Positions 25,759-56,050 of a DNA stretch of 64,000 bases are shown piece by piece; positions within the stretch are counted from its first letter, which is position 1; each line of letters opens with the position of its first letter. The stretch is taken from the NCBI RefSeq assembly GCF_030540875.1, contig NZ_JAUOEM010000001.1:434001-498000 (forward strand). The letters run 5' to 3'. Source of the stretch: Flavivirga amylovorans (GTDB lineage: Bacteria > Bacteroidota > Bacteroidia > Flavobacteriales > Flavobacteriaceae). The notes under the pieces were generated by a model. The model had not been told where the DNA came from and ran no database searches. It worked only from the letters and a program-made list of their open reading frames with translations. Both the position numbers and the translations under genes were made by a program.

Positions 25759-25910
25759 TTACTAATATTATCCATCGCATTTGTACTCATTTCAGAAAGG
25801 CGAATTGTAACTAGGTTCTCTTTTGCTCTGGAACAGGAGGCATAACACATATTTTTTGTTTTTTCTTTTCTAACTACTTCTTTTAAATTGGCTAACCTTT
25901 CTTGAATTCT
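25722..25910 (-). pseudogene. Remnant of a UvrD/Rep-type helicase C-terminus
   Basis: Between the TrlF-like stop and the jetA start, one minus-strand frame reads 62 codons to a TAA. It contains 'MCYASCSRAKENLV' and, further on, 'NWFGIENI'. The first matches helicase motif VI of UvrD-type superfamily 1 enzymes (YVACSRAKENL). The frame has no start and no helicase body upstream, because the TrlF-like gene occupies that DNA in a different frame. I read it as the 3' end of a deleted helicase gene. Its tail overlaps the first 37 bp of jetA. Confidence 0.7.
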
Positions 25911-34983: not shown

Positions 34984-36792
34984 ATGAAATACTATTCAAT
35001 AAAGCTATGTGGCTTACTTTTTTTTATAATCTCTTCTTTGTCTAATGCTACTGAAGTTATTACTATCAATCATGAACATTCAGACATAACTTCCAAGGTA
35101 AGGGAAGCTATAGAAAACGTTACAGAGAAAGATATAAAAATAGTATTTGAAAAAGGTGTTTATACATTTTTACCAGATTATGCTTTAAGTAGACATTCAT
35201 TTATAACTAATCATGGTAATGGTTACAAAAGAGTTGCCTTTCGTTTTGAAGGGTTTGATTCAGTTACTATAGAAGGTAACGGTTCAGAATTTATATTTCA
35301 CGGTCGTATGGCTCCGTTTCAGTTTGAAGATTGTGGCAATATCAAGGTGTCTGGTATTACAATAGATTGGGATATTCCATTGATTTTTCAAGCAGAAGTA
35401 CTCAAGGTAGATGAAAATAATGGCTGGTTTGATTTGCGACCTCTAAAAGAAGGTTACAGTTGGAAATTTAAGGATAATCATATATCCTTCCCTGATATTG
35501 ATGGCTTTAATTTTCATGAATTTGGTCATACCCATTGTTTTGATCCTAAAACTAAGTCTACATTTCATGGAGCTAATGGTCTTCACTTAAACCCAAATCG
35601 CGTAGAAAAATTAAGTAACGGTACTTATCGGTTTCATGAAAAGTTGAAACATTACCCCCCCGTAGGTTGTATTGTAGCTGCTAAAGGAGAAAAAGAACTT
35701 AATAGATATGCGCCTGCTTTTCAAACACAGAATTGTAAAAACGTAAACTATGATAAAATTATTATACACCATGCTTTGGGTATGGGGTTTTTATTTGAGC
35801 GCACAGAGAATATAACCATATCTAACGGTGGTGTTTATACAAGAGATGGTTCGGATAGGTATATTTCAAGTACTGCTGATGCTACACATTTTGCCAATTG
35901 TAAAGGCGATATTTTAATTGAAAATTGTAGGATAGAAGGTATGCTAGATGATGGCACAAATGTTCACGGAACTTATGTGAAAGTGGATAAAGTAGTAAAT
36001 GAAAATACTGTTATTGTAGAATTACACCATTTTGAACAAGCTGGATTTCAGTTTGCAGACTCTGGAGATGAAGTATGGTTTGTACAAAAGCCAAACCCTA
36101 ACCGAGGTGAAGTTAATACAGTTAAGTCCGTTAAATTCATTAATGATACATTTTCAAAAATTACTTTTAAAGAGGTCATTCCTACCACATTAAAAAAGGG
36201 CGATATACTTGAGAACAAAACATGGAATCCAAATTATACAATAAGAGGTTGTAAAATAAGTAAGCATAGAGCCAGAAACTTGATGTTAAAAACACCACTT
36301 AAAATTGTAGTTGAGGGTAATTATTTCTCATCAGATATGTCAGCAATTGGGTTTAGGGGAGAAACGTATAATTGGTATGAATCTGGAGCGGTACAAGATG
36401 TTGTAATAAGAAATAACCATTTTGAATATTGTGTGCATGGTAATCATGATTTACCCGTTTTATGGATTTCTCCCAAATTGAATCGTTCTTTTGACAGAAC
36501 TATCACATATGATAGAAATATTGTGTTTGAGGATAATATCATAGAAACTTTTGGGGATAGGATTGTAACTGCAGAACAAGTAGACGGGTTAATATTCAGA
36601 AATAATACAATTAAACAAACTGACAACGCAAAAAAAATTCATAATAGTAAACCTATGTTTGAATTTAAAAATTGTAAAAATGTTATTGTTTCAGGAAATA
36701 GGTACATAGGTGCAAACACCCAAATTTTGAAAACAGATAAGGCCTCTGAAACACATTTAAAATTTAAAAGAAACAAAGGTCTTAAACTATAA
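34984..36792 (+). CDS. GH110 alpha-1,3-galactosidase
   Basis: A 602-residue protein with a Sec signal (ends 'SSLSNA'). Length, parallel-beta-helix repeats ('CGNIKVSGITIDW', 'ENITISNGGVYTRD', 'VVIRNNHFEY') and the signature region 'ADATHFANCKGDILIENC' followed by 'DDGTNVHGTYVKV' match family GH110. Known GH110 enzymes are inverting exo-alpha-1,3-galactosidases acting on blood-group B or linear alpha-1,3-galactosides. Marine members have been shown to act on fragments of lambda-carrageenan-like galactans. Here it heads the catabolic run and should remove terminal alpha-1,3-Gal in the periplasm. Exact substrate and sulfation tolerance are unknown. Confidence 0.9.
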   Translation: MKYYSIKLCGLLFFIISSLSNATEVITINHEHSDITSKVREAIENVTEKDIKIVFEKGVYTFLPDYALSRHSFITNHGNGYKRVAFRFEGFDSVTIEGNGSEFIFHGRMAPFQFEDCGNIKVSGITIDWDIPLIFQAEVLKVDENNGWFDLRPLKEGYSWKFKDNHISFPDIDGFNFHEFGHTHCFDPKTKSTFHGANGLHLNPNRVEKLSNGTYRFHEKLKHYPPVGCIVAAKGEKELNRYAPAFQTQNCKNVNYDKIIIHHALGMGFLFERTENITISNGGVYTRDGSDRYISSTADATHFANCKGDILIENCRIEGMLDDGTNVHGTYVKVDKVVNENTVIVELHHFEQAGFQFADSGDEVWFVQKPNPNRGEVNTVKSVKFINDTFSKITFKEVIPTTLKKGDILENKTWNPNYTIRGCKISKHRARNLMLKTPLKIVVEGNYFSSDMSAIGFRGETYNWYESGAVQDVVIRNNHFEYCVHGNHDLPVLWISPKLNRSFDRTITYDRNIVFEDNIIETFGDRIVTAEQVDGLIFRNNTIKQTDNAKKIHNSKPMFEFKNCKNVIVSGNRYIGANTQILKTDKASETHLKFKRNKGLKL

Positions 36793-36822
36793 ATATTTAT
36801 AACAACCATTAACAATTTTAAC

Positions 36823-38118
36823 ATGTTAAAAATCAATAAATCAACTATTTTAGTATGTGCAATTTTAATTGCAATTGGCACGTCATGCTCTAAGCAAAAT
36901 AAACAAGTCGTAGAAGAAAGCAATAAAGTTGTTGCACAAACAGTAACAAATAAGCTTTCAGGACTTGCTCCAACACCTCCGATGGGCTGGAACAGTTGGA
37001 ATTGGTATGGGAAGCAAGATATAAATGAGAAAGCGGTTATGGGAACTATTGATGCCATGGCTAGTAATGGTTTACGAGATGCTGGATATAAATACGTTAT
37101 TGTTGATGGCGGGTGGCGTGATACAATACTAGGCCCTAAAGGAGAACTTTTAGTGCATAAAACTAAGTTCCCTAGAGGCATGAAGTTTTTAGCAGATTAT
37201 GCACACGCTAAAGGCATGAAGTTTGGTTTGCACGTCGTTCCAGGAACTCACGATTGTGGGGGAGATGAAGTAGGTGCATACAATAAAGAAGAAGTGCATT
37301 TAAAGCAATTTGTAGATTGGGAATTAGATTTTATAAAGTTAGACCTGTGCAGGTATAATTTAGATCCTTGTGAGCCTTGTACGCCTTACCGCAATTCCTG
37401 GACAGAGGAAACTATTGAGGACGTTTATAAAAAATGGAGTGGGCTTTTAGCAAACTGCGGTAGGGATATTACATTTAGTATTAGTGCCTACACCTTTAGG
37501 GATTGGTACCCAGAAACCTGTAATATGGCACGTACAACGGGAGATATAGAATCGCGCATACACAATGGTGCTTATTTTAATAGAGATACTAAAAAGCATT
37601 CGCACCTTAGTGTGTTAGATATTGCTGAAGTAAACAATCATTATGCAGACAAAGCAGGGAATGGGTATTGGAACGATCCAGATATGATGGTTACAGGAGA
37701 AAATGGCTTAAACGAAACCGAGCAAACATCACATTTTGCGCTTTGGTGTATGATGTCTTCGCCATTATTTATGGGAAGCGACCCTATAACTATAGGAGAT
37801 TTTGAAAAACAATTATTGATGAACAAAGAAATGGTAGCCATTAATCAAGACCCGTTGGAGCAAGGGCGTATTGTAAAACGTGACGGGATATCTCAAGTAT
37901 GGCATAAAAAATTAAAAGATGGCAAGTCTGCACTGTTGTTTTTAAGTTTAAAAGGTGGAAAATTAAAAGGTATAAGTTTTGATCTTCGAAAAATTGGATT
38001 CGATAAAAATGCCAAAATTAGAGATGTTATCAATCATAAAGATTTAAATATCAACAGAGATGTGATTTCGTTTCAGTTAAAAAAGCATGAGTCAAAAATG
38101 CTTGTACTTTCTAAATAA
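36823..38118 (+). CDS. GH27 alpha-galactosidase-like lipoprotein
   Basis: A 431-residue protein with lipoprotein signal 'IGTSC'. The catalytic barrel starts with 'APTPPMGWNSWNWYG', classical for GH27. The nucleophile region is 'DFIKLDLC' (Asp174) and a candidate acid/base Asp241 lies in 'RTTGDIESR'; a small beta domain closes the C-terminus. GH27 enzymes are retaining exo-acting alpha-galactosidases, alpha-N-acetylgalactosaminidases or beta-L-arabinopyranosidases. KLDLC in place of the usual KYDYC and the 'GTHDCGG' loop suggest adapted specificity. It follows GH110 by 30 bp, so both probably trim alpha-linked galactose from the same glycan. Confidence 0.9.
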   Translation: MLKINKSTILVCAILIAIGTSCSKQNKQVVEESNKVVAQTVTNKLSGLAPTPPMGWNSWNWYGKQDINEKAVMGTIDAMASNGLRDAGYKYVIVDGGWRDTILGPKGELLVHKTKFPRGMKFLADYAHAKGMKFGLHVVPGTHDCGGDEVGAYNKEEVHLKQFVDWELDFIKLDLCRYNLDPCEPCTPYRNSWTEETIEDVYKKWSGLLANCGRDITFSISAYTFRDWYPETCNMARTTGDIESRIHNGAYFNRDTKKHSHLSVLDIAEVNNHYADKAGNGYWNDPDMMVTGENGLNETEQTSHFALWCMMSSPLFMGSDPITIGDFEKQLLMNKEMVAINQDPLEQGRIVKRDGISQVWHKKLKDGKSALLFLSLKGGKLKGISFDLRKIGFDKNAKIRDVINHKDLNINRDVISFQLKKHESKMLVLSK

Positions 38119-38145: not shown

Positions 38146-39717
38146 ATGAAATATAAAGTGTATACCCAATTGTTTCTTTATGCCTCATGCCTTTTTATAA
38201 TGGCTACAAGTTGTGCATCAAAAGAAAAAAAAGAAAATACTACAAATACGACTCAAACAGAATACGAGCAACCTAATATATTATTTTTTGTTGCAGATGA
38301 TGCCTCAATGAAAAGTTTTGGAGCCTATGGTTCTAAGTACATCAAAACACCTGCAATAGATGCATTGGCAAAAGAAGGCGCTACATTTACAAATGCATAC
38401 AACTGTAACCCCAAATGTGCACCAGCTAGAGCTTGTTTATTAACAGGCAAGTATAGTTGGCAGTTAAAAGAAGCCACAAACCATAACCCTTATTTTCCAG
38501 AAGAATTTAAATTTTACCCAGAACTATTAGGGCAACAAGCAGGCTATTTTACAGGTTTTACGGGGAAAGGTTGGGGGCCAGGTTTATATAAAGGAAAGCA
38601 TAATCCAGCTGGACCAGAGTTTAACAAGCATGAAAAGAAACCACCATTTAAAGGCATAAGTAAAAATGACTACGCTGCTAACTTTGCAGATTTCTTATCT
38701 CAAAAACCAGAAGGAAAACCATTTTGTTTTTGGTTTGGTGTATTTGAACCGCATAGACGTTATGAGTTAGATAGTTGGAAAAAAACAAGCAAACAATTAG
38801 CCGATGCAGATGTGCCTCCATTTTATCCAGATAACGAAACTGTTAGAGGAGATCTATTAGACTATGCAAATGAGGTAGAATGGTACGATACCCAAGTTGG
38901 TAGAGCCATAAAAATATTAGAAGAAAAAGGGTTGTTATACAATACATTAATTTTAATATCATCAGATCATGGTATGCCATTTCCACGTGTAAAGGGGCAA
39001 ATCTATGAAGAAGGGTTCCATGTGCCTTTAATTGCGTACTGGAAAGGTGTGATACAGCCAGGACGAAGCATTGATGACTTTGTGAATTTCCCAGATATAG
39101 CACCGACATTCATGGAGGTTGCAGGGTTAAAACCTCATGAGCAGATGACAGGAAATAGCATCTTAGAACTATTAAAATCAGATAAATCTGGACAAATAGA
39201 TGCTTCTAGAGATCATGTATTGCTAGGAAAAGAACGTCATGATGTAGGTAGAGCAGATGATGAAGGAACAGATTTGTCTTATCCAGTTAGAGCTATCAGA
39301 AATAAGGAATTCTTATATGTTCATAACATAAAACCAGAACGCTGGCCAGTAGGGAATCCGGAATACGGTTATTTAAACTGTGATGGTTCACCAACTAAAG
39401 AATATTTAACAGCTTTGAAACCAGATGATAAAGAATATCATTTTTATGAAATGAGTTTTGCTAAACGTGTCGAAGAAGAATTGTACAATATGCAAAACGA
39501 CCCACATTGCATGAACAATTTAGCGTTATCACCAGAATATAGTGACGTGAAACAAAAATTAAGGACTCAAATGGAAAAAGAGCTTATAGCTCAAGGAGAC
39601 CCTCGTATGCTAGGAAAAGGGAATGTTTTTGATGAATATCCTTATTTTGGTAAACGTCTAAATTATAAAACAGGAGAACGCTATTTAGTTCCCGATTCAG
39701 AAAAACCTAATAAATAG
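38146..39717 (+). CDS. S1-family sulfatase (lipoprotein)
   Basis: A 523-residue protein with lipoprotein signal 'IMATSC'. The S1 formylglycine sulfatase fold is clear: metal-binding 'ADDASMKSFG' near the N-terminus, the modification motif C-A-P-A-R at Cys91-Arg95 and 'DHGMPFPRVKG' later. The Ala at the fourth motif position is less common than Ser but within the CxPxR pattern accepted by formylglycine-generating enzyme. 'DDASM' replaces the usual DDxGYGD, so this is a distinct S1 subfamily from the other three in this locus. It should remove a sulfate ester from the PUL glycan. Confidence 0.9.
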   Translation: MKYKVYTQLFLYASCLFIMATSCASKEKKENTTNTTQTEYEQPNILFFVADDASMKSFGAYGSKYIKTPAIDALAKEGATFTNAYNCNPKCAPARACLLTGKYSWQLKEATNHNPYFPEEFKFYPELLGQQAGYFTGFTGKGWGPGLYKGKHNPAGPEFNKHEKKPPFKGISKNDYAANFADFLSQKPEGKPFCFWFGVFEPHRRYELDSWKKTSKQLADADVPPFYPDNETVRGDLLDYANEVEWYDTQVGRAIKILEEKGLLYNTLILISSDHGMPFPRVKGQIYEEGFHVPLIAYWKGVIQPGRSIDDFVNFPDIAPTFMEVAGLKPHEQMTGNSILELLKSDKSGQIDASRDHVLLGKERHDVGRADDEGTDLSYPVRAIRNKEFLYVHNIKPERWPVGNPEYGYLNCDGSPTKEYLTALKPDDKEYHFYEMSFAKRVEEELYNMQNDPHCMNNLALSPEYSDVKQKLRTQMEKELIAQGDPRMLGKGNVFDEYPYFGKRLNYKTGERYLVPDSEKPNK

Positions 39718-39749: not shown

Positions 39750-41690
39750 ATGAAAAGAAGGAATTTTTTAAGGAATGTAGCAGGAGCAGCAGCGGCAACT
39801 ACTATAGTGCCTATTGCTTGTGTGTCTCCTGGTGAAAAGAACGAAAGTTACTTATCTAATAGAGAAAATGACCAATGGGAATCTCTAGGAACAGGAAAAC
39901 AAGAAATACCAGTAAGAAAAAAAACAGTTCAATATGATGTTGTAGTCATAGGAGCTGGTATGGGAGGGGTTCCTGCAGCTGTATCTGCTGCCAGAACTGG
40001 AGCTAAAACACTTTTAATAAACGATAGACCTGTATTAGGGGGGAATTCTTCAAGTGAAATTAGAGTAACTCTAAATGGTGTAAATCAATTAGAATCAACT
40101 AAATTACCTGAACGGGAGACTGGAATTTTTGAAGAAATTCAAATTGAAAATAGAGCCTATAATCAGCAAGAGTCCTATCCTGTTTGGGATCATGTCTTAT
40201 ATGACTATGTTACGAGAGAGCCTAACTTAACAGTCATGTTAAATACGCAGGCCATTGATGCCATCATGGATGGTGATGATAAAATTAAAGCAGCGCGTTG
40301 TTGGCAGTCTACTACCGAAATGGAATATATTGTAGAAGCGCCCTTGTTTTTGGATTGTTCTGGTGATGGATTAATGGCTGCTAAGGCAGGTGCATTATAC
40401 AGAACTGGTAGAGAAGGTAAGGCAGAATATGATGAGAAATATGCTCCAGATGAAGCAGATGGATGGCAAATGGGATCATCTATTTTAATGCAAGCCAAAG
40501 ATATGGGACGGCCTATGCCTTATAAAGCACCTTCATTTACTATTCCTTTTAAACATGAAGAAAGAGAAGGTAAAGAAAGACGTATCAAACAATATGTTGA
40601 TGGTTTTTGGTGGGTTGAGTTAGGAAGCGAATATGATATTATCGAAGACCAAGAAACAAATCGACATAAATTGATGGGCTATTTACATGGGGTTTGGGAC
40701 TATGTAAAGAACTCTGGAGAACACCCAGAATCAGCTAATTATGCACTTACATGGGTAGGGTCTTTTCCAGGTAGAAGAGAATCTAGACGCTTTATTGGTG
40801 ATTATGTATTATCTGAAAAAGATTTAACGGAATACAGACATTTTGAAGATGCTATTGGATATGGAGGATGGTCTTTAGATGAGCACAACCCTGGAGGAAT
40901 AGAAAGAATAGATTTACCTCCTAGTTATTTCCATCAAAAATTTAAAAAAATGTATGAGGTGCCTTTTAGATGTTTATATTCTAAAAACATTTCTAACTTA
41001 ATGTTTGCTGGTCGTAATGCTAGTTTAACACATATTGCATTGTCTTCTACAAGAATTCAAGGCACTTGTGCGCTTATGGGACAAGCTATTGGTACAGCTG
41101 CTGCCATGTGTGTAGAAAAAGGTATCCTGCCAAGAGAATTTGCTCAAAAACACATCAAAGAATTGCAAGAGCAATTGATGAGAGATGATGTTTATATTCC
41201 AAATGTAAAAGCAAATGATGCTAAAGATTTGGCTAAAAAAGCTAGCACGATTTTTGCCTCTTCTACAAAGACAGGCGATGTAAACTTATTGACAAACGGT
41301 GTTTCTAGAGATATTTTATATAGAAATGAAATCAATCACTGGCAATCTGAATCTTTACCTGCTCAATTACAAATGGAATGGGAAGCACCAATTGATTTGT
41401 CTAAAATTGAAATTAAGTGTGATACCAATCTTCAAAGAAAGATTATGATGCGTAAGCAACCTACACTTAAGCATCATACAACTCAAATTCCGCCTGAACT
41501 TCTAAAAACTTTAGATGCTGAAGTAAGAGTAGATGGTAAATGGGTAAAGGTTGGTGAAAAAGAAGACAATTTAAGGCGTTTAATCAAATTCCATTTCGAT
41601 TCTAAAAAGGTAACAGCTATAAGAATCAATATGAAGGAAACGTATGGACATGATACCGCCAAATTATTTGAAGTTCGTTGTTATTCATAA
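39750..41690 (+). CDS. Tat-exported FAD-dependent oxidoreductase
   Basis: A 646-residue protein beginning 'MKRRNFLR', a twin-arginine signal, with a possible lipobox Cys at 'IVPIAC'. The Rossmann FAD motif 'VIGAGMGGVPAA' (67-78) belongs to the FAD_oxidored (PF12831-like) group. A second nucleotide-binding text 'NLMFAGRNASLTHIALSSTR' lies near 425. The C-terminal ~130 residues look like a beta-sandwich (carbohydrate-binding-like). Proteins of this family are common in Bacteroidota glycan loci and their substrates are largely unknown. Tat export implies folding with FAD in the cytoplasm. Its stop (41690) directly abuts the ATG of the FMN-binding gene, indicating a functional pair. Confidence 0.85.
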   Translation: MKRRNFLRNVAGAAAATTIVPIACVSPGEKNESYLSNRENDQWESLGTGKQEIPVRKKTVQYDVVVIGAGMGGVPAAVSAARTGAKTLLINDRPVLGGNSSSEIRVTLNGVNQLESTKLPERETGIFEEIQIENRAYNQQESYPVWDHVLYDYVTREPNLTVMLNTQAIDAIMDGDDKIKAARCWQSTTEMEYIVEAPLFLDCSGDGLMAAKAGALYRTGREGKAEYDEKYAPDEADGWQMGSSILMQAKDMGRPMPYKAPSFTIPFKHEEREGKERRIKQYVDGFWWVELGSEYDIIEDQETNRHKLMGYLHGVWDYVKNSGEHPESANYALTWVGSFPGRRESRRFIGDYVLSEKDLTEYRHFEDAIGYGGWSLDEHNPGGIERIDLPPSYFHQKFKKMYEVPFRCLYSKNISNLMFAGRNASLTHIALSSTRIQGTCALMGQAIGTAAAMCVEKGILPREFAQKHIKELQEQLMRDDVYIPNVKANDAKDLAKKASTIFASSTKTGDVNLLTNGVSRDILYRNEINHWQSESLPAQLQMEWEAPIDLSKIEIKCDTNLQRKIMMRKQPTLKHHTTQIPPELLKTLDAEVRVDGKWVKVGEKEDNLRRLIKFHFDSKKVTAIRINMKETYGHDTAKLFEVRCYS

Positions 41691-42824
41691 ATGATTTCTA
41701 AAATCCAAATAATAGTTTTTCATAGTTTTATTCTTTTTGCTGCTTTTTTTTTATCAAAACAAAATATAGGTACTAAAAGAGATACAATTATAAAACACGA
41801 TGTTGCGGTATTACATCCAGGTATAGATAATACGAAACCAATACAGCAGACATTATTTGAAGTAGAAAAATCGTATGGTGGTGCTCGTATATTTTATGCT
41901 GAGGTAGAATCTGTTGTTTGTGGTAGTAAAGTGTGTAAAGTTATACCCATGCGTATCTATTGGGATGCACTAGGAAGGTATACACACTATGAGATAGCAA
42001 AAGGCTTTAATCTTGAAAAAGAAGAAGGGGAGCCTTTTGCAAAAGAAGACCATAATAAATTACATCAAATATTAAAGGATAGAAATTCCGTTTTAAAGGA
42101 GTATTATAAAGAAGAGTTGGTAAGTAAGGCAGATAATAATGCCGTTGATGCATTATCTGGTGCAACAATTAGCATAGACCCCAATGCAGTCGTTACAGGA
42201 GCTGTTTGGACCTGTTATACCTTATGGCATTGGGCAAATGGAAGTTTTGTTGAAAAAATAAGAGACATTACATCAAAAAAAAGCGATACTCAACTTTTGC
42301 TAAACTACTTAACTTATGGCGACAAGTATTACAGGGAATTAGCAATAGAAACATTCATAAAACGAAAAATTTATGATGATAATACTATTAAAAATGTTTT
42401 AAAGGCTGCAAACATAGAATCTATGTTACAGCCTATAACATTGGCTTATTTAGAACAATCTTCAGCAAAAAATTATTATAGCAACATTAATTCTTTTTTT
42501 GAATTTGCTGATGAGAAATTTCGTGTCACTATTTTAAATTCCTTATATAAAACAGCTTTTAAAGCACCTGAACCGTTTTACGATGCTTTTAGTGAACAGT
42601 TATTAATGACCAATAATTATCAAGAGATAAATCTTATTTTAGATTTGTTTAAGCTTAAAAAGCATAAATCATCTAAAGTCGTTAACGAAGTTTTAAAGCT
42701 CCTGGATCACAAGGAATTTTTAATTTCGAGAAGAGCTTATTGGTTTTTAAACAATATAACGTTAAGTAATAATCAAAAAACAAGGGTTCTTCAATTTCAA
42801 AAGAAATATAAGAGTAAACTATAA
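41691..42824 (+). CDS. Predicted flavinylated FMN-binding-domain protein with HEAT-like tail
   Basis: A 377-residue protein with an N-terminal hydrophobic signal/anchor. Residues about 65-185 resemble the FMN_bind domain of RnfG/NqrC. D-A-L-S-G-A-T-I-S (153-161) matches the flavin-transferase (ApbE) recognition pattern DxxSGATxS exactly, which predicts FMN covalently attached to Thr159. The remaining ~190 residues are helical and HEAT-like, ending without a membrane anchor. In known systems such domains shuttle electrons outside the cytoplasmic membrane. It abuts the FAD oxidoreductase gene with no gap, so it is the likely electron partner. No ApbE gene is in the window. Confidence 0.7.
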   Translation: MISKIQIIVFHSFILFAAFFLSKQNIGTKRDTIIKHDVAVLHPGIDNTKPIQQTLFEVEKSYGGARIFYAEVESVVCGSKVCKVIPMRIYWDALGRYTHYEIAKGFNLEKEEGEPFAKEDHNKLHQILKDRNSVLKEYYKEELVSKADNNAVDALSGATISIDPNAVVTGAVWTCYTLWHWANGSFVEKIRDITSKKSDTQLLLNYLTYGDKYYRELAIETFIKRKIYDDNTIKNVLKAANIESMLQPITLAYLEQSSAKNYYSNINSFFEFADEKFRVTILNSLYKTAFKAPEPFYDAFSEQLLMTNNYQEINLILDLFKLKKHKSSKVVNEVLKLLDHKEFLISRRAYWFLNNITLSNNQKTRVLQFQKKYKSKL

Positions 42825-42880: not shown

Positions 42881-44314
42881 ATGATAACATTTTTAGTTTG
42901 TATAGCAGTTTTAATATTGGGTTATTTTATATATGGAAATTATGTTGAAAAACAATTTGGTATTGATGTTAACCGAAAAACACCTGCTATAACCAAACAA
43001 GACGGGGTAGACTATGTCCCATTAAAATTGGGTAAAATATTTTTAATTCAGTTTTTAAATATAGCTGGCTTAGGGCCAATCTTTGGTGCTATTGCTGGTG
43101 CATTATGGGGGCCAGTAGCGTTTTTATGGATAGTTTTTGGTTGTATTTTTGGCGGTGTTGTTCATGATTATTTTTCAGGAATGTTATCTATAAGACATGG
43201 AGGCGATAGTATTCCAGAAATTGTTGGTAAATATTTAGGAGGTGGCGTTAGGCAATTTATGCGTGTTTTTGCAGTAGTATTGCTTATTTTGGTAGGCGTA
43301 GTTTTTGTTAAAGGACCAGCTACTATTTTACAGGAATTAACAGGTGTAAATGTTTCTATTTTAATAGGTGCTATTTTTGTTTATTATTTATTGGCAACCA
43401 TGATTCCCATTGATAAACTCATTGGGAAAGTATATCCATTATTTGGAGCCTCTCTTTTAATTATGGCAATAGGGCTATTTGGTGGTTTATTATTTCAAGG
43501 CTATACTATTCCAGAACTTACGATATCAAATTTTGTTAATATGCACAGTTCGCCCGATAAATATCCCGTATTTCCATTAGTATTTATTACAATTGCTTGT
43601 GGTGCAATTTCTGGCTTTCACTCTACACAATCACCGCTAATGGCAAGATGTATTTCCAATGAAAAAGATGGCAAAAAAGTATTTATAGGCGCTATGATTA
43701 CTGAAGGTATTGTGGCCATGATTTGGGCAGCAGTCGCTATGGCATTTTTTGGAGGTGTTAAGCAATTGGGGGAGACCATGGCTATTGAAGGTCATAACGC
43801 AGCATGGGTAGTAAATATTATTTGCAATACCATGTTGGGGAAAGTTGGAGGTATTCTTGCAATTTTTGGAGTTGTCGCTGCCCCTATAACATCAGGAGAC
43901 ACCGCATTTAGAAGTGCACGATTAACGGTAGCTGATGCTTTTAACTTTAATCAAACCAAGTTAGCGAAGCGTTTGGTTATTACCGTTCCTATTTTTTTAA
44001 TTGCTCTGATTCTAACAAGAGTTGATTTTGCAATTATATGGAGGTATTTTGGTTGGTCTAACCAAATGTTGGCAACAGTTGTATTATGGGCTGCAGCAGT
44101 GTATATGAAACAACAAGGAAAAAAGTCATTATTTATTTTAATTCCTGCTGCATTTATGACGGTTGTTGTGGTAACTTATATATTAGTAGCACCAGAAGGT
44201 TTTCAGTTGCCATATGTCTTATCATGTATTATAGGTGTAGTTATAGCTCTTACTTTATCGGTTTGGTTTTTAATGGCTAAAAATGTTAGTGAATTATCAT
44301 TAAAAACAAAATAA
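42881..44314 (+). CDS. cstA: CstA-family permease (short form)
   Basis: A 477-residue multi-spanning protein. 'LNIAGLGPIFGAIAGALWGP' and 'DYFSGMLSIRHGGDSIPE' are hallmark CstA sequences; about 12-14 hydrophobic segments are visible. It lacks the long C-terminal part of E. coli CstA (701 residues) and belongs to the short class usual in Bacteroidota. CstA proteins transport pyruvate or small peptides. Inside a glycan locus that also encodes pyruvate-releasing enzymes, a role in handling pyruvate or another small organic acid is plausible. It lies 56 bp after the FMN-binding gene. Confidence 0.88.
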   Translation: MITFLVCIAVLILGYFIYGNYVEKQFGIDVNRKTPAITKQDGVDYVPLKLGKIFLIQFLNIAGLGPIFGAIAGALWGPVAFLWIVFGCIFGGVVHDYFSGMLSIRHGGDSIPEIVGKYLGGGVRQFMRVFAVVLLILVGVVFVKGPATILQELTGVNVSILIGAIFVYYLLATMIPIDKLIGKVYPLFGASLLIMAIGLFGGLLFQGYTIPELTISNFVNMHSSPDKYPVFPLVFITIACGAISGFHSTQSPLMARCISNEKDGKKVFIGAMITEGIVAMIWAAVAMAFFGGVKQLGETMAIEGHNAAWVVNIICNTMLGKVGGILAIFGVVAAPITSGDTAFRSARLTVADAFNFNQTKLAKRLVITVPIFLIALILTRVDFAIIWRYFGWSNQMLATVVLWAAAVYMKQQGKKSLFILIPAAFMTVVVVTYILVAPEGFQLPYVLSCIIGVVIALTLSVWFLMAKNVSELSLKTK

Positions 44315-44469: not shown

Positions 44470-45231
44470 ATGGGATTGGATACATTTTCACTTCAAAATA
44501 AATTGGCCTTAATCACTGGAGGAGGAACTGGCATTGGTTTAGGAATAGCAAAAGCATTTATTAGTGCAAATGCTCAAGTTATTATCACTGGAAGACGAGA
44601 AGAGGTGCTAAAAAAAGCAGTAGAAGAATTAGGCGATAACGCAAATTATATTGTAAACGATATAAGTGATAAAAGCAATATTCCAGAGCTAATTTCTCAT
44701 ATAGAGCATCGTTTTGGTGTTATTGATATTTTGGTGAATAATGCAGGTGTTCATTTAAAGAAATGGGCGCAAGATACCAGTGACAATGATTTTGAAAACG
44801 TCATAAACACCAATTTGCTAAGTGTTTTTTCGTTAACTAGGGAGTGTGCAAGAAAAATGATTGAAAGAAAACAAGGAGCTATTATACTAATTAGTTCCAT
44901 GACAGCATTGTTTGGGATGGATAGAGTCGTTGCCTATGGTACTTCTAAAACAGCTCTAACAGGTTTAATGAATAACTTGGTTACAGAATATTCAAAACAT
45001 CATGTAAGAATAAATGCGATTGCTCCAGGTTGGATTGAATCTGATATGTTGCATAAAGCACTAGATGTTGACAAACAACGAAAAGACAAAATAGTTAATA
45101 GGATAGCTATGAACCATTTTGGACAGCCAGAAGATATTGGTAATACAGCTATTTTTCTAGCTTCAAATGCTAGTAAGTATATTACAGGGGTTACAATACC
45201 TGTTGATGGTGGTGCTAAGATTAACTTTTAA
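44470..45231 (+). CDS. SDR-family NAD(P)-dependent dehydrogenase
   Basis: A 253-residue classical short-chain dehydrogenase. It has cofactor motif 'TGGGTGIG' (16-23), 'NNAG' (90-93), Ser near 142-143, Tyr156-x-x-x-Lys160 in 'YGTSK' and C-terminal 'VDGGAKINF'. It resembles gluconate 5-dehydrogenase/KduD-like enzymes that oxidise or reduce keto-deoxy sugar acids. With the UxaA-type dehydratase and RraA-like aldolase nearby, oxidation of a 2-keto-3-deoxy sugar acid is the best guess. A 155 bp gap precedes it, so it may start a new transcript. Confidence 0.88.
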   Translation: MGLDTFSLQNKLALITGGGTGIGLGIAKAFISANAQVIITGRREEVLKKAVEELGDNANYIVNDISDKSNIPELISHIEHRFGVIDILVNNAGVHLKKWAQDTSDNDFENVINTNLLSVFSLTRECARKMIERKQGAIILISSMTALFGMDRVVAYGTSKTALTGLMNNLVTEYSKHHVRINAIAPGWIESDMLHKALDVDKQRKDKIVNRIAMNHFGQPEDIGNTAIFLASNASKYITGVTIPVDGGAKINF

Positions 45232-45336
45232 AGTGGTTAAAATTATACATTTCATATATTTGTTTGATAAGCATTGGGTGTTATGAAAAAGTCATAGCAC
45301 ATTAGTAAACCACTTTTCTAATATAAAGACTTATAA

Positions 45337-46206
45337 TTGATAACTAAACAAGTAGATAGAAGCAGTCATTTAAATAGTTCATTAGGATTTACTCATAATT
45401 ATTCGGCGTCTTATCTAGATATATGGCATTGTCATCCAGAGTTAGAATTAAATTATAATGCAAAGGGTACTGGTATTAAATTCATAGGTGAGCATATAGA
45501 ACCTTTTCAACCTGGAGATTTGGTTTTAATGGGAGAAAACCTATCCCATCGTTGGCTTTTAGACGATGACTTTAAAGCTAACAATCAAGATAATTTTAAG
45601 CATGCAGAATCTTTGGTTATACACTTTAAAAAAAACTTTGCAGGAACCAGTTTCTATGATATGCCAGAGATGTCTAAGGTGAATGCATTGCTTTCAAAAT
45701 CAAAACTCGGTATCAAATTTTCAGATAAAACTACTCAAGCAGCAGCAGGTATTTTGTTAAAGATGAAAAAAGCATCAAATTTTGATAGATTGGTAATGTT
45801 TATGAAAATTTTGGGTATTCTAGCAGATGATAAACATTATCAAACACTTTGTAGCGAAGGTTATCATAAGGCTTCTTTTACTAACAAAGGAAATTTAAAC
45901 AGTGTATTAGAATATTTAATACACAACTTTCAAAATGAGATTTCTTTAGATGAAATTGCGAAAATTTCAAATATGAGTAAATCCTCATTTTGTCGTTTTT
46001 TTAAGAAAGTAAATGGAAAAACATTTACACAATACCTCAATAATATAAGAGTAGGTTATGCATGCAAATTGTTTCATGAAAAAAGCGATAAGAGTATAAG
46101 TCAGGTATGTTATTCTAGTGGCTATGGAAATTTATCACATTTCAACCGTCAATTCAAAAATATTATGGGGGTTACACCATCAGAATATCTTAAGCAAATT
46201 AAATAG
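45337..46206 (+). CDS. AraC-family regulator within the PUL
   Basis: A 289-residue protein. The frame opens with TTG immediately after an in-frame TAA and no early ATG exists, so TTG is the probable start. The N-terminal cupin-like sensor has 'HCHPELELNYNAKGTG' and 'QPGDLVLMGENLSHRW'. The C-terminal AraC double HTH has 'ISLDEIAKISNMSKSSFCRFFKK' and 'GYGNLSHFNRQFKNIMGVTPSEY'. Cupin-AraC proteins often sense a free monosaccharide or acid in the cytoplasm. It could control the sugar-acid genes around it (44470-50299), as a second regulatory layer beside the HTCS. Confidence 0.88.
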   Translation: MITKQVDRSSHLNSSLGFTHNYSASYLDIWHCHPELELNYNAKGTGIKFIGEHIEPFQPGDLVLMGENLSHRWLLDDDFKANNQDNFKHAESLVIHFKKNFAGTSFYDMPEMSKVNALLSKSKLGIKFSDKTTQAAAGILLKMKKASNFDRLVMFMKILGILADDKHYQTLCSEGYHKASFTNKGNLNSVLEYLIHNFQNEISLDEIAKISNMSKSSFCRFFKKVNGKTFTQYLNNIRVGYACKLFHEKSDKSISQVCYSSGYGNLSHFNRQFKNIMGVTPSEYLKQIK

Positions 46207-46364
46207 TTGCTTCAAAGATTTATTTGAAACATTACCATATATTCTCAAAACACTTATTATTTACTCATAAAAGGCAATATTGTATTAGTTGTTAATAATA
46301 CAGTCGTAGAGTTTTTTCAATATATCCATTATCATTGTAGTTAAATTATTAATATATAATACGC
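46207..46364. other. Intergenic region before the RraA-like gene
   Basis: 158 bp of AT-rich sequence between the AraC gene and the start of the sugar-acid gene run. It probably contains a promoter that the AraC protein controls. No clear inverted repeat is seen. Confidence 0.4.
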
Positions 46365-47063
46365 ATGAGTACACCCATTTGGAAAAATGATGACGAATTA
46401 ATAGCACTTGCAAAAAAAGAATTATTTACAGCCTTAGTTGGAGATTCCTTAGATAAAATTAATTTAAGGCATCAATTTTTACCTGCTCAAGTAAAACCAT
46501 TATCTCCAGAAATGGTAGTGCTTGGTAGAGCTATGCCAGTTGTTGAAGCGGATGTTTACGACGAAATTGTAGAAAACACAAAAAACGAGCTCATGAGTAA
46601 ACCTTTTGGTTTAATGTTTGAGGCATTAGATTCCCTGCAAAAAAACGAAGTTTATATATGCACGGGAGGCTCTCATAATTATGCCATGTGGGGTGGCTTA
46701 ATGTCAACCAGAGCTATAAAATGTGGAGCAGCAGGAGCAGTAGTTGATGGCTATAGTAGAGATACCAATGAAATATTGAGATTAAATTTCCCAACATGTT
46801 CAATCGGAACTTATGCCCAAGATCAAGGCCCTAGAGGTAAGGTTATTGATTATGGAGTACCTATAATTTGGAATGGTATAAAAATAAACCCAGGAGATTG
46901 GGTATATGGAGATCGCGATGGCGTTGTAATTATTCCTAAGGAAGTAGAAGAACAGGTGTTTACATTAGCTTTTGAGAAGGCAAGAGGAGAAAAAAGTGTG
47001 CTAAAAGCATTAGAAGGCGGAATGACTACTGTGGAGGCTTTTGAGAAATTCGGAATTATGTAA
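46365..47063 (+). CDS. RraA-like class II pyruvate aldolase / oxaloacetate decarboxylase family
   Basis: A 232-residue protein of the RraA/HMG-CHA aldolase fold. 'GGSHNYAMWGGLMSTRAIKCG', 'AGAVVDGYSRDTNEI' (Arg-Asp metal/substrate site) and 'GDWVYGDRDGVVIIP' are the conserved blocks. Members are either RNase E regulators (RraA proper, shorter, in proteobacteria) or metal-dependent aldolases that release pyruvate from 4-hydroxy-2-keto acids. In this context the aldolase role is far more likely. It is followed by the two UxaA-type genes at spacings of 23 and 12 bp, so they form one unit. Confidence 0.85.
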   Translation: MSTPIWKNDDELIALAKKELFTALVGDSLDKINLRHQFLPAQVKPLSPEMVVLGRAMPVVEADVYDEIVENTKNELMSKPFGLMFEALDSLQKNEVYICTGGSHNYAMWGGLMSTRAIKCGAAGAVVDGYSRDTNEILRLNFPTCSIGTYAQDQGPRGKVIDYGVPIIWNGIKINPGDWVYGDRDGVVIIPKEVEEQVFTLAFEKARGEKSVLKALEGGMTTVEAFEKFGIM

Positions 47064-47086
47064 CATCTTAAAGGTAAATTCATTTT

Positions 47087-47419
47087 ATGAAACAGGCATT
47101 AATAAAGATTCACAATGATGATAATGTAGCCACAGCTTTAGAAAAATTAAGTATTGGTTTGGTGTCTTTTCGTGATACAGAAAAAAAAATAGTGCAAGTA
47201 GATGTTATTGAAACAATTAATGCTGGGCATAAAATAGCTTTAAAAGATTTGAAACAAGGCGAGCCTATTGTTAAATATGGTGTTATTATTGGTTATGCAA
47301 GTATTCCCATAGGTTTAGGAACTTGGATACACTTGCATAATTTAGAGAGTAAATTTGATGAACGCTCAAGTACTTTAGATACAGAAACTGGCGCTCCAAC
47401 AGATATTGAATATCTATAA
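47087..47419 (+). CDS. UxaA-type dehydratase, small (SAF-domain) subunit
   Basis: A 110-residue protein matching the N-terminal SAF domain of altronate/galactarate dehydratases: 'ALIKIHNDDNVATALEKL', 'INAGHKIALKDLKQGEPIVKYG' and 'LGTWIHLHNL'. In E. coli UxaA this domain is fused to the catalytic part; here it is a separate gene, as in many Bacteroidota and archaea. It lies 12 bp before the large-subunit gene. Confidence 0.88.
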   Translation: MKQALIKIHNDDNVATALEKLSIGLVSFRDTEKKIVQVDVIETINAGHKIALKDLKQGEPIVKYGVIIGYASIPIGLGTWIHLHNLESKFDERSSTLDTETGAPTDIEYL

Positions 47420-47431
47420 ATTGCAGCTACA

Positions 47432-48646
47432 ATGAACAAGGAGATACTTCAAACAACATGGGATGGCTATTTACGGAATGATGGTCGTAAAGGCATTCGT
47501 AATTTAGTATTAATAATATACACAGTAGAATGTGCAAGTTTTGTAGCTCATCAAATAGCCAAAGATGAAGATGATGTACATGTAATTGGCTTTCCTGGAT
47601 GTTATGACAATGCTTATGCAATACGAATGTTGTTGGCTTTAGCACGCCATCCAAACGTAGGCGCTGTATTGGCCGTTGGTTTAGGATGTGAATATACAAG
47701 GCCAGAAAAAATAGCGGAAGTAGTTCGCAGTTCTGGTAGGCCGGCAGATAGTTTTTTTATTCAACATTTTGGAGGTACAACAAAAAGTATTACCAAAGGA
47801 AAAGCCATTGTAAATACCTTTAAAGAAGAAATCTCTAAAGTGCCAAAGGTAAAAATGGACCTCAAAGATTTAGTAGTAGGTGCAGAGTGTGGTGGTAGCG
47901 ATGCTACCTCTGGGTTGGCAGGAAATCCAGTAGTGGGAAGGTTTTATGATATTTTGGTAGAACAGGGTGGTACGGCAATTTTTGAGGAAGTTGTAGAGTT
48001 AATTGGCTTAAAAGATATTCTAGTAGATCGAGGAAAAACAGAAACTGCAAAACAATCTTTGGCACAAGCCTATGATAAGGCAATGAGCTACTGTAAAGAT
48101 GTACGGCAATGGTCTACATCACCAGGTAATTTTGAAGGCGGTCTCACTACTATTGAAGAAAAAAGTATGGGAGCCTTTGCCAAAAGCGGCTCTAAACCCA
48201 TAGAAGGTGTTATTAAAGTATCAGAAATACCATCCCAAAATGGTTTGTGGTTGCTAGATTCGGTTCCAGATAAGCATTTTATGCAGTTTGGGTACACCAA
48301 TCCAAATGATAGTGAAGGGATTTTAGATTTAATAGCAACAGGTGCTCAGGTTGTATTGTTTGTAACAGGTAGAGGCTCTGTTATAGGAAGCCCTATTGCA
48401 CCTTTATTAAAAGTAACAGGAAATGCGGAGACCTTTAAAAATATGGAAGGGGATATGGATTTTGATGCGAGCAAAGTACTATCTGGAGAACAAACTATGG
48501 AAGAAGCCGCCTTAGATTTAGCTAAACTAATTATAAATGTGTGTTCTGGTATGGCTTCTAAGCCAGAGGCTTTAGGACACAGAGAGTTTTTTATTCCTTA
48601 TAAACATCAAGATACACCATCTCTTGCTAATGGCTGTAGAGCTTAA
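47432..48646 (+). CDS. UxaA-type sugar-acid dehydratase, large subunit
   Basis: A 404-residue protein. '[24 protein letters not shown]', '[18 protein letters not shown]' and '[17 protein letters not shown]' are the conserved blocks of the UxaA/GarD catalytic domain, including the Cys residues likely to bind the metal. These enzymes dehydrate sugar acids (altronate, galactarate and relatives) to 2-keto-3-deoxy acids. The family name does not fix the substrate; a galactonate- or fuconate-like acid would suit this locus. It works with the small subunit directly upstream. Confidence 0.9.
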
Positions 48647-48676
48647 ACATATATAATAATAAGTACGTAAAACAAT

Positions 48677-50299
48677 ATGGACATTAAACTAAACAATATA
48701 GACTTAATTATAATCGTGGTATACTTATTAGTCATTCTGTCTTTGGGGTGCTGGTATTATATTAAAGCCTATATTGATAAAAAGAAAGTCCAAACCGATA
48801 GTAAAGGGTATTTTTTAGCTGGTGGTAACCTTAAATGGCCAGTGATTGGCCTATCATTATTTGCTACCAATATATCTACAATTCACATGGTAGGTTTGGC
48901 TCAAGCGGGTTATGAAGATGGCCTGTTAAATGGCAATTACGAATTAATGTCTGGTTTTGTCATTATTATTTTGGCTATATTTTTTGTGCCCTTTTACATA
49001 AGAAGCCGTGTTGCAACCTTACCGGATTTTTTAGAACAACGTTTTGATAGAGCTTCGCGAGATTGGGTTGCAGGTATATCTATAGCATCAGCAATATTGG
49101 TACATATTGGTTTTTCACTTGTTACTGGAGCAGTTGTTTTAGAGGGCATGTTTGGGTTTGATAAAACAGCGAGTATTTTATTAATTGTTCTGTTAACGGG
49201 AGCCTATACAATTGTTGGCGGGTTAAGAGCAGTGGTGTTTACAGAGTCCTTACAAGCTATTATTTTAATATTAGGAGCTATTGCAGTTACCGTTGCAGCT
49301 TATTTAAAGCTAGGTAGTTGGGATGTATTGGTTAATAATATTGATAAGAGTGCTTTAAATTTGTTGCGTTCCGGAGAAGAATCGCACTTCCCTTGGTATG
49401 CAGTATTTTTAGGATATCCAGTAATTGGAATATGGTATTGGTGTACAGATCAAACTATCGTGCAACGTGTTTTAGGAGCTAAAGACGAAGAACATGCTAG
49501 AGTAGGAGCTATTTTTTCGGGTTTTTTAAAACTCTTGCCCATGTTCATTTTTGTATTGCCAGGGCTTATGGTAGTGGCTTTAATAAATACAGGGAAAATA
49601 GACGATACGTTATTGGAAAGTAAAGACACACTATCATTCTTAATTCGTAATCTTTTGCCTCCAGGGCTAACAGGTCTAATGGCGGCAGCATTATTGGCAG
49701 CTGTAATGAGTTCGGTTTCAGGAGCTTTAAATTCAATTTCAACATTGTTTACCTACGATTTGTACAAAAGGTTCAAACCTAAAACGCCAGATAAAAAGTT
49801 AGTACGTATAGGTAGAATAACAGCTTTTGTCGCCATGATAGTTTCTGTATTATGGTCTTTTGCTATTGAAGGGAAAGAAGGAATTTTTAACGAAATGGTT
49901 GGTATTGTGGTATTAATTTCGCCACCTCTAACTATGGTTTTTTTATTCGGTATTTTTTGGAAAAAAGCATCGTCTTTTGCCTCAAAATGGACACTTTGGT
50001 TGGGGTCTTTAGCAGGCGTATTGGTTTATGTATACCATAGAACTTATGAAATTTTTGGTTTTCCAGAATGGAAACCCAAAACTCTTATGGAAGGGGTATA
50101 TTTATCTATAATTTGCACCATTATTATGGTAGTGTTTAGTTATTGGAAACCCCAAGAGCAAACTGAAAAAAGTAAAGCGCTAACATGGGCTTATTTTTGG
50201 GAACCTCTAGAACCTAAAGGATGGAAGGGAATAGGAAATTATAAGTTTTTGAGTGTGTTATTACTCTTAGCAATGGCTCTCATATACATTATTTTTTAA
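48677..50299 (+). CDS. Sodium:solute symporter (SSS/SGLT family)
   Basis: A 540-residue membrane protein with about 14 transmembrane segments. 'GYFLAGGNLKWPVIGLSLFATNIS' and 'GLTGLMAAALLAAVMSSVSGALNS' are SSS-family core motifs around the sodium sites. Members of this size import sugars, sugar acids or other solutes with Na+. Placed between the sugar-acid enzymes and GH29, it should import the released monosaccharide or its oxidised form across the inner membrane. Confidence 0.92.
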   Translation: MDIKLNNIDLIIIVVYLLVILSLGCWYYIKAYIDKKKVQTDSKGYFLAGGNLKWPVIGLSLFATNISTIHMVGLAQAGYEDGLLNGNYELMSGFVIIILAIFFVPFYIRSRVATLPDFLEQRFDRASRDWVAGISIASAILVHIGFSLVTGAVVLEGMFGFDKTASILLIVLLTGAYTIVGGLRAVVFTESLQAIILILGAIAVTVAAYLKLGSWDVLVNNIDKSALNLLRSGEESHFPWYAVFLGYPVIGIWYWCTDQTIVQRVLGAKDEEHARVGAIFSGFLKLLPMFIFVLPGLMVVALINTGKIDDTLLESKDTLSFLIRNLLPPGLTGLMAAALLAAVMSSVSGALNSISTLFTYDLYKRFKPKTPDKKLVRIGRITAFVAMIVSVLWSFAIEGKEGIFNEMVGIVVLISPPLTMVFLFGIFWKKASSFASKWTLWLGSLAGVLVYVYHRTYEIFGFPEWKPKTLMEGVYLSIICTIIMVVFSYWKPQEQTEKSKALTWAYFWEPLEPKGWKGIGNYKFLSVLLLLAMALIYIIF

Positions 50300-50327: not shown

Positions 50328-51836
50328 ATGAAAAAAAGTATAATCCAAGTTATTGTTTTATTACTGGTTTTATCATCCTGTAATAAAGGCATAAAAAAAG
50401 AATCCAGTACATCACCAGAAGCTTTTCGGTATGAAGACAATTGGGAATCTATTCGATCAAAATATGAGGTGCCAGAGTGGTTTAGAGATGCTAAATTCGG
50501 TATTTTTATTAATTGGGGGCCTTATGCAGTTCCAGCTTACAGTAGTGAGAAATATGGAAAAGGTATCTACAGTCCTAAATGGCAACGTGGGGGGGAGTAT
50601 CCATATACATACCACAAAGAACACTATGGAGATGCTTCAAAGTTTGGTTATAAAGATTTAGTACCATTATTTAAGGCTGAGAATTTTGATGTCAAATCAT
50701 GGGGTGATTTATTTAAAAAGTCCCATGCAAAATATGTAGTACATGTAGCGGATTATCATGATGGTTTTGCCATGTACAATGCCAACCACACCAGATGGAA
50801 TGTAGCTAACATGGGGCCTAAAAAAGACATTATGAAAATGGTTGCAGAGGAGTGCAAATCCTTAGGATTAAAATTTGGAGTATCTTCTCATTTTGCACTA
50901 AACAGACAGTATTATAGTCGTAGCAATCCAGATTGGGATACTAACGACCCTAATTATTATGATTTATATGGAGAGCCTATAAAAAAAGGAGACCTGCCAA
51001 CACAAAAGTTTTTAAATCATTGGTGGGACAGAACAACCGATGTTATTGATCAATATGAACCCGATTTATTATGGTTTGATTTTGGATTGGATAAACCTGG
51101 GTTTGAGTCAGTTCACAAAAAAATTCTGGCATATTATTATAACAAAGGATTAGATTGGGATAAGGAAGTAGTATTTCAAGATAAAAATATGAAAAACGAA
51201 TCTTTTCCCGAAGATTTAATTGTGTTGGATATAGAACGCGGGCGTATGGATGGAATTTTTAAATACCCTTGGCAAACCGATACATCAGTTGGTAAAATTT
51301 CTTGGGGTCATATTAAAAATGAACAGTATAAATCGGTTAATTATCTGTTAGATGAACTCATTGATATTGTTAGTAAAAATGGTTGTTTATTGTTAAACAT
51401 TGGGCCAAAAGCCGATGGTACTATTCCTCAAGAATCTGAAGATATTTTAACCAACATGGGAAAATGGCTAAGTGTAAATGGAGAAGCTATTTTTGAAACA
51501 CGACCATGGAAAATTTATGGGGAAGGCCCTACTAAAGTTAGTAAAGGGCATCATTCAGAGAAAGAAAATAAGTTGGCTACAGCAAAGGATATTCGTTTTA
51601 CAACAAAAGAGAATTACTTGTATGCAACTGCTTTAAATTGGTCAGAAGACGGCACTTATACTATCAAGTCTTTAGCTAAGAATAATCCTTATGATAGTCG
51701 AAATATTGAATCGGTAGAATTCATAAGTGGAACTAATAATATAATTTGGGAGCAAACTTCAGAAGGACTTGCCATAAAAGTTGAGGGAAATAAGCCCTGT
51801 GAAGCGGCTTATGTTTTTAAAATTCAACTCAAATAA
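50328..51836 (+). CDS. GH29 alpha-L-fucosidase-like lipoprotein
   Basis: A 502-residue protein with lipoprotein signal 'VLSSC'. GH29 blocks are evident: 'WFRDAKFGIFINWGPYAVPAY', 'YVVHVADYHDGFAMYN' and the nucleophile in 'PDLLWFDFGLDKPG' (Asp251). 'NGCLLLNIGPKADGTIP' marks the barrel end, followed by a C-terminal beta-sandwich. GH29 enzymes are retaining exo-alpha-L-fucosidases; some accept alpha-L-galactosides. 'DYHDG' in place of the common 'KHHDGF' is a variation near the active site. In a galactan locus either terminal fucose or L-galactose is possible. Confidence 0.9.
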   Translation: MKKSIIQVIVLLLVLSSCNKGIKKESSTSPEAFRYEDNWESIRSKYEVPEWFRDAKFGIFINWGPYAVPAYSSEKYGKGIYSPKWQRGGEYPYTYHKEHYGDASKFGYKDLVPLFKAENFDVKSWGDLFKKSHAKYVVHVADYHDGFAMYNANHTRWNVANMGPKKDIMKMVAEECKSLGLKFGVSSHFALNRQYYSRSNPDWDTNDPNYYDLYGEPIKKGDLPTQKFLNHWWDRTTDVIDQYEPDLLWFDFGLDKPGFESVHKKILAYYYNKGLDWDKEVVFQDKNMKNESFPEDLIVLDIERGRMDGIFKYPWQTDTSVGKISWGHIKNEQYKSVNYLLDELIDIVSKNGCLLLNIGPKADGTIPQESEDILTNMGKWLSVNGEAIFETRPWKIYGEGPTKVSKGHHSEKENKLATAKDIRFTTKENYLYATALNWSEDGTYTIKSLAKNNPYDSRNIESVEFISGTNNIIWEQTSEGLAIKVEGNKPCEAAYVFKIQLK

Positions 51837-51842
51837 AAAAGT

Positions 51843-53000: not shown

Positions 53001-53011
53001 ACTAAACTTTT

Positions 53012-54826: not shown

Positions 54827-54833
54827 AACGAAA

Positions 54834-55982: not shown

Positions 55983-55996
55983 AGAATAGTGTTTAT

Positions 55997-56033
55997 AAAA
56001 AAAGTGCTTTAGAATTTCTAAAGCACTTTTTTT
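55997..56033. terminator. Bidirectional terminator at the convergent junction
   Basis: AGTGCTTTAGAA and TTCTAAAGCACT form a 12 bp stem with a one-base loop, flanked by A7 on the left and T7 on the right. It lies between the end of propeller copy B (plus) and the end of a sulfatase (minus), so it can stop transcripts from both sides. Confidence 0.88.
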
Positions 56034-56050
56034 ATAATAGTAAAGGATTA

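Follow-up and report, generated by a model that had tools for sequence, protein, structure and literature searches.

Flavinylated fumarate-reductase-like oxidoreductases, among them urocanate and fumarate reductases, combine an extracytosolic flavin adenine dinucleotide (FAD) enzyme of the PF00890 family with an FMN_bind domain flavinylated by ApbE, as set out in parts of a flavinylation survey (PMC8238504). We found a gene pair that resembles these systems, P1 and P2, in a 64,000-nucleotide stretch of Flavivirga amylovorans (contig NZ_JAUOEM010000001.1, positions 434,001 to 498,000), hereafter called the window and used for all coordinates. The pair departs from the PF00890-type systems in that P1 belongs to PF12831, the putative carrier P2 is encoded by a separate gene, of an unnamed family and with a helical-repeat tail, and both lie in a glycan locus. 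Occurring side by side in many marine bacteria with gene clusters for sulfated seaweed sugars, P1 and P2 suggest an extracytoplasmic transfer of electrons to or from a sugar. The pair is laid out as follows.

39750-41690, plus strand: P1, exported FAD-dependent oxidoreductase of 646 amino acids (aa), with PF12831 and a Tat-type (twin-arginine translocation) signal
41691-42824, plus strand: P2, predicted flavinylated electron carrier of 377 aa (sequence features and AlphaFold2 model), with an N-terminal hydrophobic segment, a beta-rich FMN_bind-like domain and C-terminal helical (HEAT-like) repeats
41919-41936, plus strand: cysteine pair C77-x4-C82 of P2 (conservation in the family)
42147-42167, plus strand: predicted ApbE flavinylation motif DALSGAT of P2, acceptor Thr159 (motif match)
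42282-42821, plus strand: helical repeat tail of P2, aa 198-377 (AlphaFold2)

P2 also resembles RnfG and NqrC, the FMN_bind (PF04205) proteins, in its SGAT-type motif, its N-terminal hydrophobic segment and the top-ranked, if not significant, match of its modelled N-terminal domain. It differs from them by its conserved C-x4-C pair and helical tail and by its score against the NCBIfam rnfG model, which lies below the cut-off (20.7 of 102 bits); the one further NCBIfam match among 36 family members is a stray one. No Rnf or Nqr subunit was seen beside P2 in the open reading frame lists of the window, not every frame of which was scanned. Like the multi-flavinylated FMN_bind proteins (8p2b), with whose FMN4 domain 1 its N-domain profile aligns in the motif region, P2 carries such a motif; unlike them, it has only a single motif and a single domain of this kind, besides the helical tail. 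The FAD sugar dehydrogenases of glycan breakdown (AA3/GMC) offer a parallel for a possible extracytoplasmic sugar oxidation by P1, which belongs to a different FAD family; we know of no flavinylated carrier among them, although no search for one was made. The setting recalls the carrageenan utilization loci of Zobellia and relatives, also sulfated galactan loci, as presented in parts of PMC5698469. The legend of Fig. 9 in that paper labels genes as fumarate reductase/succinate dehydrogenase and isoquinoline 1-oxidoreductase, and its main text mentions neither FMN nor FAD.

The first-pass annotation, made from sequence, had described P1 as a Tat-type FAD oxidoreductase followed without a gap by P2, and both points are borne out: the coordinates and lengths are exact, zero bases separate the P1 stop from the P2 start, and the N terminus MKRRNFLRN is a twin-arginine signal. 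PF12831 (FAD_oxidored) matches P1 over the whole model (E 1.5e-89, 301.6 bits against a cut-off of 27, model positions 1-416), placing the FAD domain at aa 63-476, and the C-terminal region has no Pfam match. The PF00890 match is limited to model positions 1-38 of 414, and P1 is not assigned to that family. All 34 aligned P1 members match PF12831, and their invariant positions include R343, E344, R347, D377 and H379. Of the 104 FAD_oxidored proteins that neighbour P2, 80 fit a crude Tat pattern, the one in locus L052 probably by chance.

The first-pass annotation had named three results that would refute it, among them a motif not conserved in orthologues and two genes not linked in other genomes; neither of these two occurred. 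P2 has a match in 31 of 249 family genomes, and among 35 P2 loci (34 fetched regions and the window) a P1-like gene adjoins P2 in 34. Scanning named GTDB contigs gave 74 P2 loci in Bacteroidota, Planctomycetes, Kiritimatiellota and Verrucomicrobia, and in 65 of these P1 is encoded on the same strand no more than 300 bases away; a first query of 36 diverse rows had contained no conserved stretch. When the sets are pooled (109 loci: the window, L034-L067 and L081-L154, with some contigs shared between sets), a FAD_oxidored gene stands beside P2 in 99, against 20.6 expected from random placement within each locus. Four further P2 loci all have a P1 neighbour. The link is found mainly in Bacteroidota. 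Among 85 distinct pairs, the gap is at most 30 bases in 69, the order is reversed in three (as it also is in L201), and P1 and P2 distances co-vary (Mantel r 0.84, uncorrected for species phylogeny, with 0 of 2000 permutations as high). Close homologues tell the same story: P1 homologues of at least 58% identity occur at 19 places in 11 of 249 family genomes, and close P2 homologues (at least 196 bits) in the same 11, leaving 238 with neither (Fisher p 2e-19). These cut-offs were chosen after the data were seen and fall in wide gaps, where identity drops from 58 to 44% and the score from 196 to 101 bits, and each search covered a 249-genome sample, the sameness of the genomes resting on agreement of the handles listed. 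A joint function of P1 and P2 is thus well supported by genomics.

The partners of P2 are of several architectures: Tat-type proteins of about 640-655 aa, proteins of about 597 aa with signals that read as Sec-like, and others of about 450 aa and of 1056 aa. One second group of P1 proteins, about 42% identical over the full length, was found in five genomes, each with P2. The third group, of about 760-830 aa, is independent of P2, since it is present also in genomes that lack it (G017, G019, G094, G115, G121). In L042 and L043, whose contigs are those of L117 and L121, P2 is directly followed by a second FAD_oxidored gene, of 614 aa and with no visible signal peptide.

The first-pass annotation had also noted that DALSGATIS (P2 residues 153-161) fits the pattern at which ApbE attaches flavin. 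DALSGAT (153-159) does match the motif D-x-x-[S/T]-G-A-[S/T] given in parts of a 2025 review (PMC12052999). This is a conserved feature: in 36 P2 members of 18-42% identity to the P2 of the window, the invariant positions are C77, C82, W91, G95, K110, F116, L128, D153, T159, G170 and W179. Among the 74 named loci, which overlap with this set through contigs in common, T159 is present in all 74 and D153, C77 and C82 in 73 each. Of 99 distinct P2 members, 77 have the strict motif at the aligned position; among the 1331 other open reading frames of 90 aa or longer in the fetched loci, 3 have it at any position, so that its presence in P2 is more than chance. Judged by sequence, the hydrophobic residues 2-20 may be a signal or anchor, and the C77-x4-C82 pair would form a disulfide or a dithiol, possibly a disulfide across a hairpin.

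The assignment of P2 to FMN_bind by profile, in contrast, did not hold. P2 has no Pfam family at E 0.001, and PF04205 matches none of the 36 members, P2 included, at E 0.01, two members having stray matches to other families. The same search of the F. amylovorans genome found one other protein and not P2. The family is unnamed in Pfam and NCBIfam.

The third refuting result, a prediction that shows no FMN_bind fold, is answered only weakly by structure prediction. The full-length AlphaFold2 model (mean predicted local distance difference test score, pLDDT, 91.3) consists of an N-domain with five strands and a wholly helical tail with block means of 94-98 from residue 200 on, which confirms as helical repeats the HEAT-like tail suggested earlier; the motif loop (146-159) is below 50. 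Foldseek with the whole model returned no match at E 0.001, helical-repeat proteins prevailing, and because of this the N-domain was modelled alone (mean pLDDT 84.6). Against a library of 350,542 chains, RnfG (8ahx, 8rb9, 8rb8) and NqrC (4xhf) then took ranks 1-5 and 7. Comparison by hhalign of the P2 profile with 18 PF04205 proteins of the same order, which we take to be of RnfG/NqrC type, gave 72%, centred on the motif; controls against the P1 alignment gave 0.1% and 0.2%. A profile search of PDB sequences listed ten matches, the third of which, FMN4 domain 1 (8p2b; E 0.04), aligns with P2 in the motif region; the two ranked higher are repeat proteins aligned elsewhere. We read P2 as a probable remote relative of FMN_bind and not as a member of PF04205.

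No ApbE gene lies in the window. The F. amylovorans genome holds two elsewhere, the first at a distance of about 8 kb from the only PF04205 gene, which we take to be NqrC. The second stands in a row (L068 8474-11585, G000:C8) between a thioredoxin-like gene and a DUF3570 gene, DUF3570 being an ApbE substrate according to parts of PMC8238504. The most direct hints of P2 flavinylation, although few, come from two relatives with ApbE in an operon with the pair: Flavobacterium sp. 7A (L097), with the order P1-ApbE-P2, and L201, from another family of the same class, with the order P2-P1-ApbE beside SusC/SusD-like genes.

We lean, with some reserve, towards the view that P1 and P2 form an extracytosolic dehydrogenase and its covalently flavinylated carrier, serving sulfated-galactan loci. 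P1 would be exported by the Tat route with FAD bound and would act outside the cytoplasm as a dehydrogenase, its substrate being an oligosaccharide, or a single sugar residue, of a sulfated algal galactan. P2 would be exported as well, with flavin mononucleotide (FMN) attached to Thr159 by an ApbE flavin transferase acting in trans; this FMN would receive electrons from the FAD of P1, and P2 would hand them to a membrane or cytochrome acceptor. The helical tail may dock P1 or the downstream acceptor. From the first-pass interpretation, the coupling of an exported FAD enzyme to a flavinylated-type protein in a glycan locus is upheld by linkage and motif; flavinylation itself, electron transfer from P1 to P2, its direction, the substrate, the acceptor and the arrival of electrons in the respiratory chain are what we infer.

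Several observations weigh against this account. Ten of the 109 loci have no adjoining P1 (L097, L107, L123, L065, L100, L116, L139, L141, L144, L145); ApbE sits between P1 and P2 in L097, a 999-aa FAD_oxidored gene ends 3.2 kb upstream of P2 in L107, and a contig end truncates P2 in L123. Seven loci are titled Planctomycetes, Pirellulaceae, Verrucomicrobia, Pontiellaceae or Kiritimatiell-, and P1 adjoins P2 in one of them (L110) and in none of the other six. The own genome carries a second Tat-type P1 paralogue (62% identity; G000:C1:104635-106566, L205 7636-9570) in a locus that reads as GH2- and sulfatase-rich (GH, glycoside hydrolase) and has no P2 of its own; the two P1 proteins may share the single P2 in trans. 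Departures from the strict motif occur in 22 of 99 P2 sequences, mostly Ala for Ser/Thr or Glu for Ala, but are not peculiar to P2, since GGT replaces GAT in 13 of the 18 PF04205 proteins. The RnfG and NqrC fold matches are not significant (E 0.47-1.6, template modelling score 0.28-0.35), and the hhalign alignment spans 19 columns only. ApbE shares an operon with the pair in just 2 of 113 loci; within the fetched loci it occurs in 2 of 109 (L097 and L150, in the latter on the opposite strand and 5.7 kb away) and in one of the four further loci (L201). ApbE was found in all 34 P2-bearing genomes tested, and we rejected this as evidence because 118 of 120 family genomes carry ApbE anyway. The pair has no conserved membrane acceptor next to it, and CxxCH is present in 12 genes near P2, some of them ferredoxins, spread over 10 of the 109 loci, so a cytochrome partner near P2 is not a general feature. 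The Pontiellaceae locus L100 has a PSCyt1 cytochrome/DUF2231-like protein after P2 (11039-12061), a candidate electron acceptor.

Sulfated algal galactans are the natural inference for the substrate setting. The window locus combines GLAA-B-type, melibiase-type and fucosidase genes with four sulfatases, SusC/D, a sodium symporter and an altronate-type dehydratase, and 51 of the 74 named loci contain one or more sulfatases. Recurring neighbour groups of P2 loci include GH16, GH2, GLAA-B-type, GH127, GH106 and lambda-carrageenase-like proteins, with Pfam matches of representatives taken among the 25 of 52 families listed. The neighbours in the window are these.

34984-38118, plus strand: GLAA-B-type protein, which we take to be GH110-like, and melibiase/alpha-galactosidase (Pfam)
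38146-39717, plus strand: sulfatase directly upstream of P1 (PF00884)
42881-44314, plus strand: CstA-type permease, next gene after P2 (PF02554)
44470-50299, plus strand: short-chain dehydrogenase/reductase, AraC regulator, RraA-like protein, two altronate/galactarate dehydratase parts and sodium:solute symporter
50328-64000, no single strand given: rest of the glycan locus, with alpha-L-fucosidase, three more sulfatases, SusD (59816-61555) and TonB receptor (61562-64000)

An unlikely but credible alternative is that electrons flow the other way, P2 delivering them from respiration and P1, outside the cytoplasm, reducing an unsaturated or oxidised sugar or an organic acid, as the flavinylated fumarate-reductase-like enzymes do. 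In its favour, the characterised flavinylated FAD enzymes of PF00890 type, with a similar pairing, are reductases (parts of PMC8238504). The best PDB sequence matches of P1 are also flavocytochrome c3 fumarate reductases, but the similarity spans about 40-55 residues at the FAD-binding start only, as it does for the 18 sequences retrieved by a profile search at E 1e-8. P2 is likewise present in three loci titled Kiritimatiellae, Kiritimatiellales or Kiritimatiellia, and Kiritimatiellota live anaerobically; these three loci (L107, L116, L145), however, lack an adjoining P1, and most P2 hosts of the named loci are marine Bacteroidota, which are taken as mostly aerobic.

Less likely still is a third possibility, that the pair acts on a small acid or a substituent (e.g., lactate, a pyruvyl or a methyl group) and not on a backbone sugar, with CstA importing the product. 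It owes its interest to the CstA-type permease, which is the next gene after P2 in the window and in 24 of the 109 loci, and lies within five genes in 28; an acetolactate decarboxylase gene also flanks P2 in L116. In 81 loci, however, there is no CstA among the neighbouring genes examined, and the window CstA, although it resembles an NCBIfam model named pyruvate/proton symporter, falls far short of the cut-off of that model (86 of 1188 bits). DUF7402 is matched by 7 of 34 P1 proteins and F5/8 type C by 2 of 34 (E up to 0.01), a fold that often binds carbohydrate, which speaks against a small acid; the P1 of the window matches neither.

We give little credence to an unflavinylated P2 that serves P1 as an adaptor or assembly factor through its helical-repeat tail, the motif being a leftover. 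The off-consensus motifs, the position of the family outside PF04205, the scarcity of ApbE near P2 and the low model confidence of the motif loop would all fit such a role, but the acceptor Thr is invariant (36 of 36 members, 74 of 74 loci), ApbE stands in the operon in two loci of different families, and a loop modelled without its ligand would be expected to score low. That P1 and P2 are mere neighbours is scarcely credible: some proximity is expected because both are glycan-locus genes, but the observed adjacency, the shared 11 genomes, the co-divergence and a link common to several P1 architectures largely refute it.

Extending the dehydrogenase and carrier account, we tentatively propose that an unnamed family of ApbE-flavinylated carriers outside PF04205 may be the dedicated acceptor for several exported FAD_oxidored architectures. 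Marine Bacteroidota, together with at least one Planctomycetes, would thereby gain an oxidative step, coupled to respiration, in extracytoplasmic sulfated-galactan breakdown. Provided that P2 is flavinylated, what is new is the carrier family, the partner family and the setting of flavinylation-based electron transfer. The main flavinylation survey searched by PF02424 (ApbE) and PF04205 and their neighbourhoods, according to parts of PMC8238504, and would thus miss the P2 family unless ApbE is nearby, which it rarely is; the terms HEAT, PF12831, sulfatase, polysaccharide, Bacteroid and sugar are absent from the text of that survey. Within the open-access PubMed Central (PMC) literature, a scope that is no proof of absence, we found no paper joining flavinylation with polysaccharide utilization, none joining FMN-binding and FAD-dependent oxidoreductase proteins with polysaccharide utilization loci, none joining an FMN-binding protein, a FAD-dependent oxidoreductase and a sulfatase with CstA/marine or Planctomyc, and none from 2019 on flavinylation with periplasmic FMN in Flavobacteri. 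In the same literature, PF12831 was found in one paper, on a Brucella flavoproteome, and a passage of PMC11345257 mentions in passing that a FAD-dependent oxidoreductase lies close to a SusC/D pair. With P2, PF12831 enzymes have a candidate physiological electron partner. If glycan oxidation is true, seaweed-polysaccharide breakdown gains a redox step tied to electron transport, and both the reading of such loci and the cofactors needed in enzyme assays would change.

Some neighbours of P2 hint at further redox chemistry. Near P2 in L132 (13255-15947), and also in L092 and L099, there are genes for a ferredoxin-like protein, a ferredoxin reductase and a zinc alcohol dehydrogenase, which are reminiscent of the oxidative demethylation set for 6-O-methyl-galactose. 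XdhC and MobA-like nucleotidyltransferase genes lie near P2 in L136 (12822-13853) and L044 (1426-2079), which suggests a molybdenum hydroxylase in some P2 loci.

Elsewhere in the window, the proteins at 51843-53000 (385 aa) and 54834-55982 (382 aa) look similar to each other and have no Pfam match. We dropped GH117 as an identity for the first, since Pfam gave nothing for it at E 0.001, nor did PDB sequences at E 0.1. On the minus strand, four genes of 459, 216, 1085 and 339 aa (19544-28737) have a Wadjet-like layout; the last of them is the only one with a PADLOC match (JetD, E 1.9e-6). The gene after this set encodes 942 aa and matches the Ppl model (E 3.7e-21).

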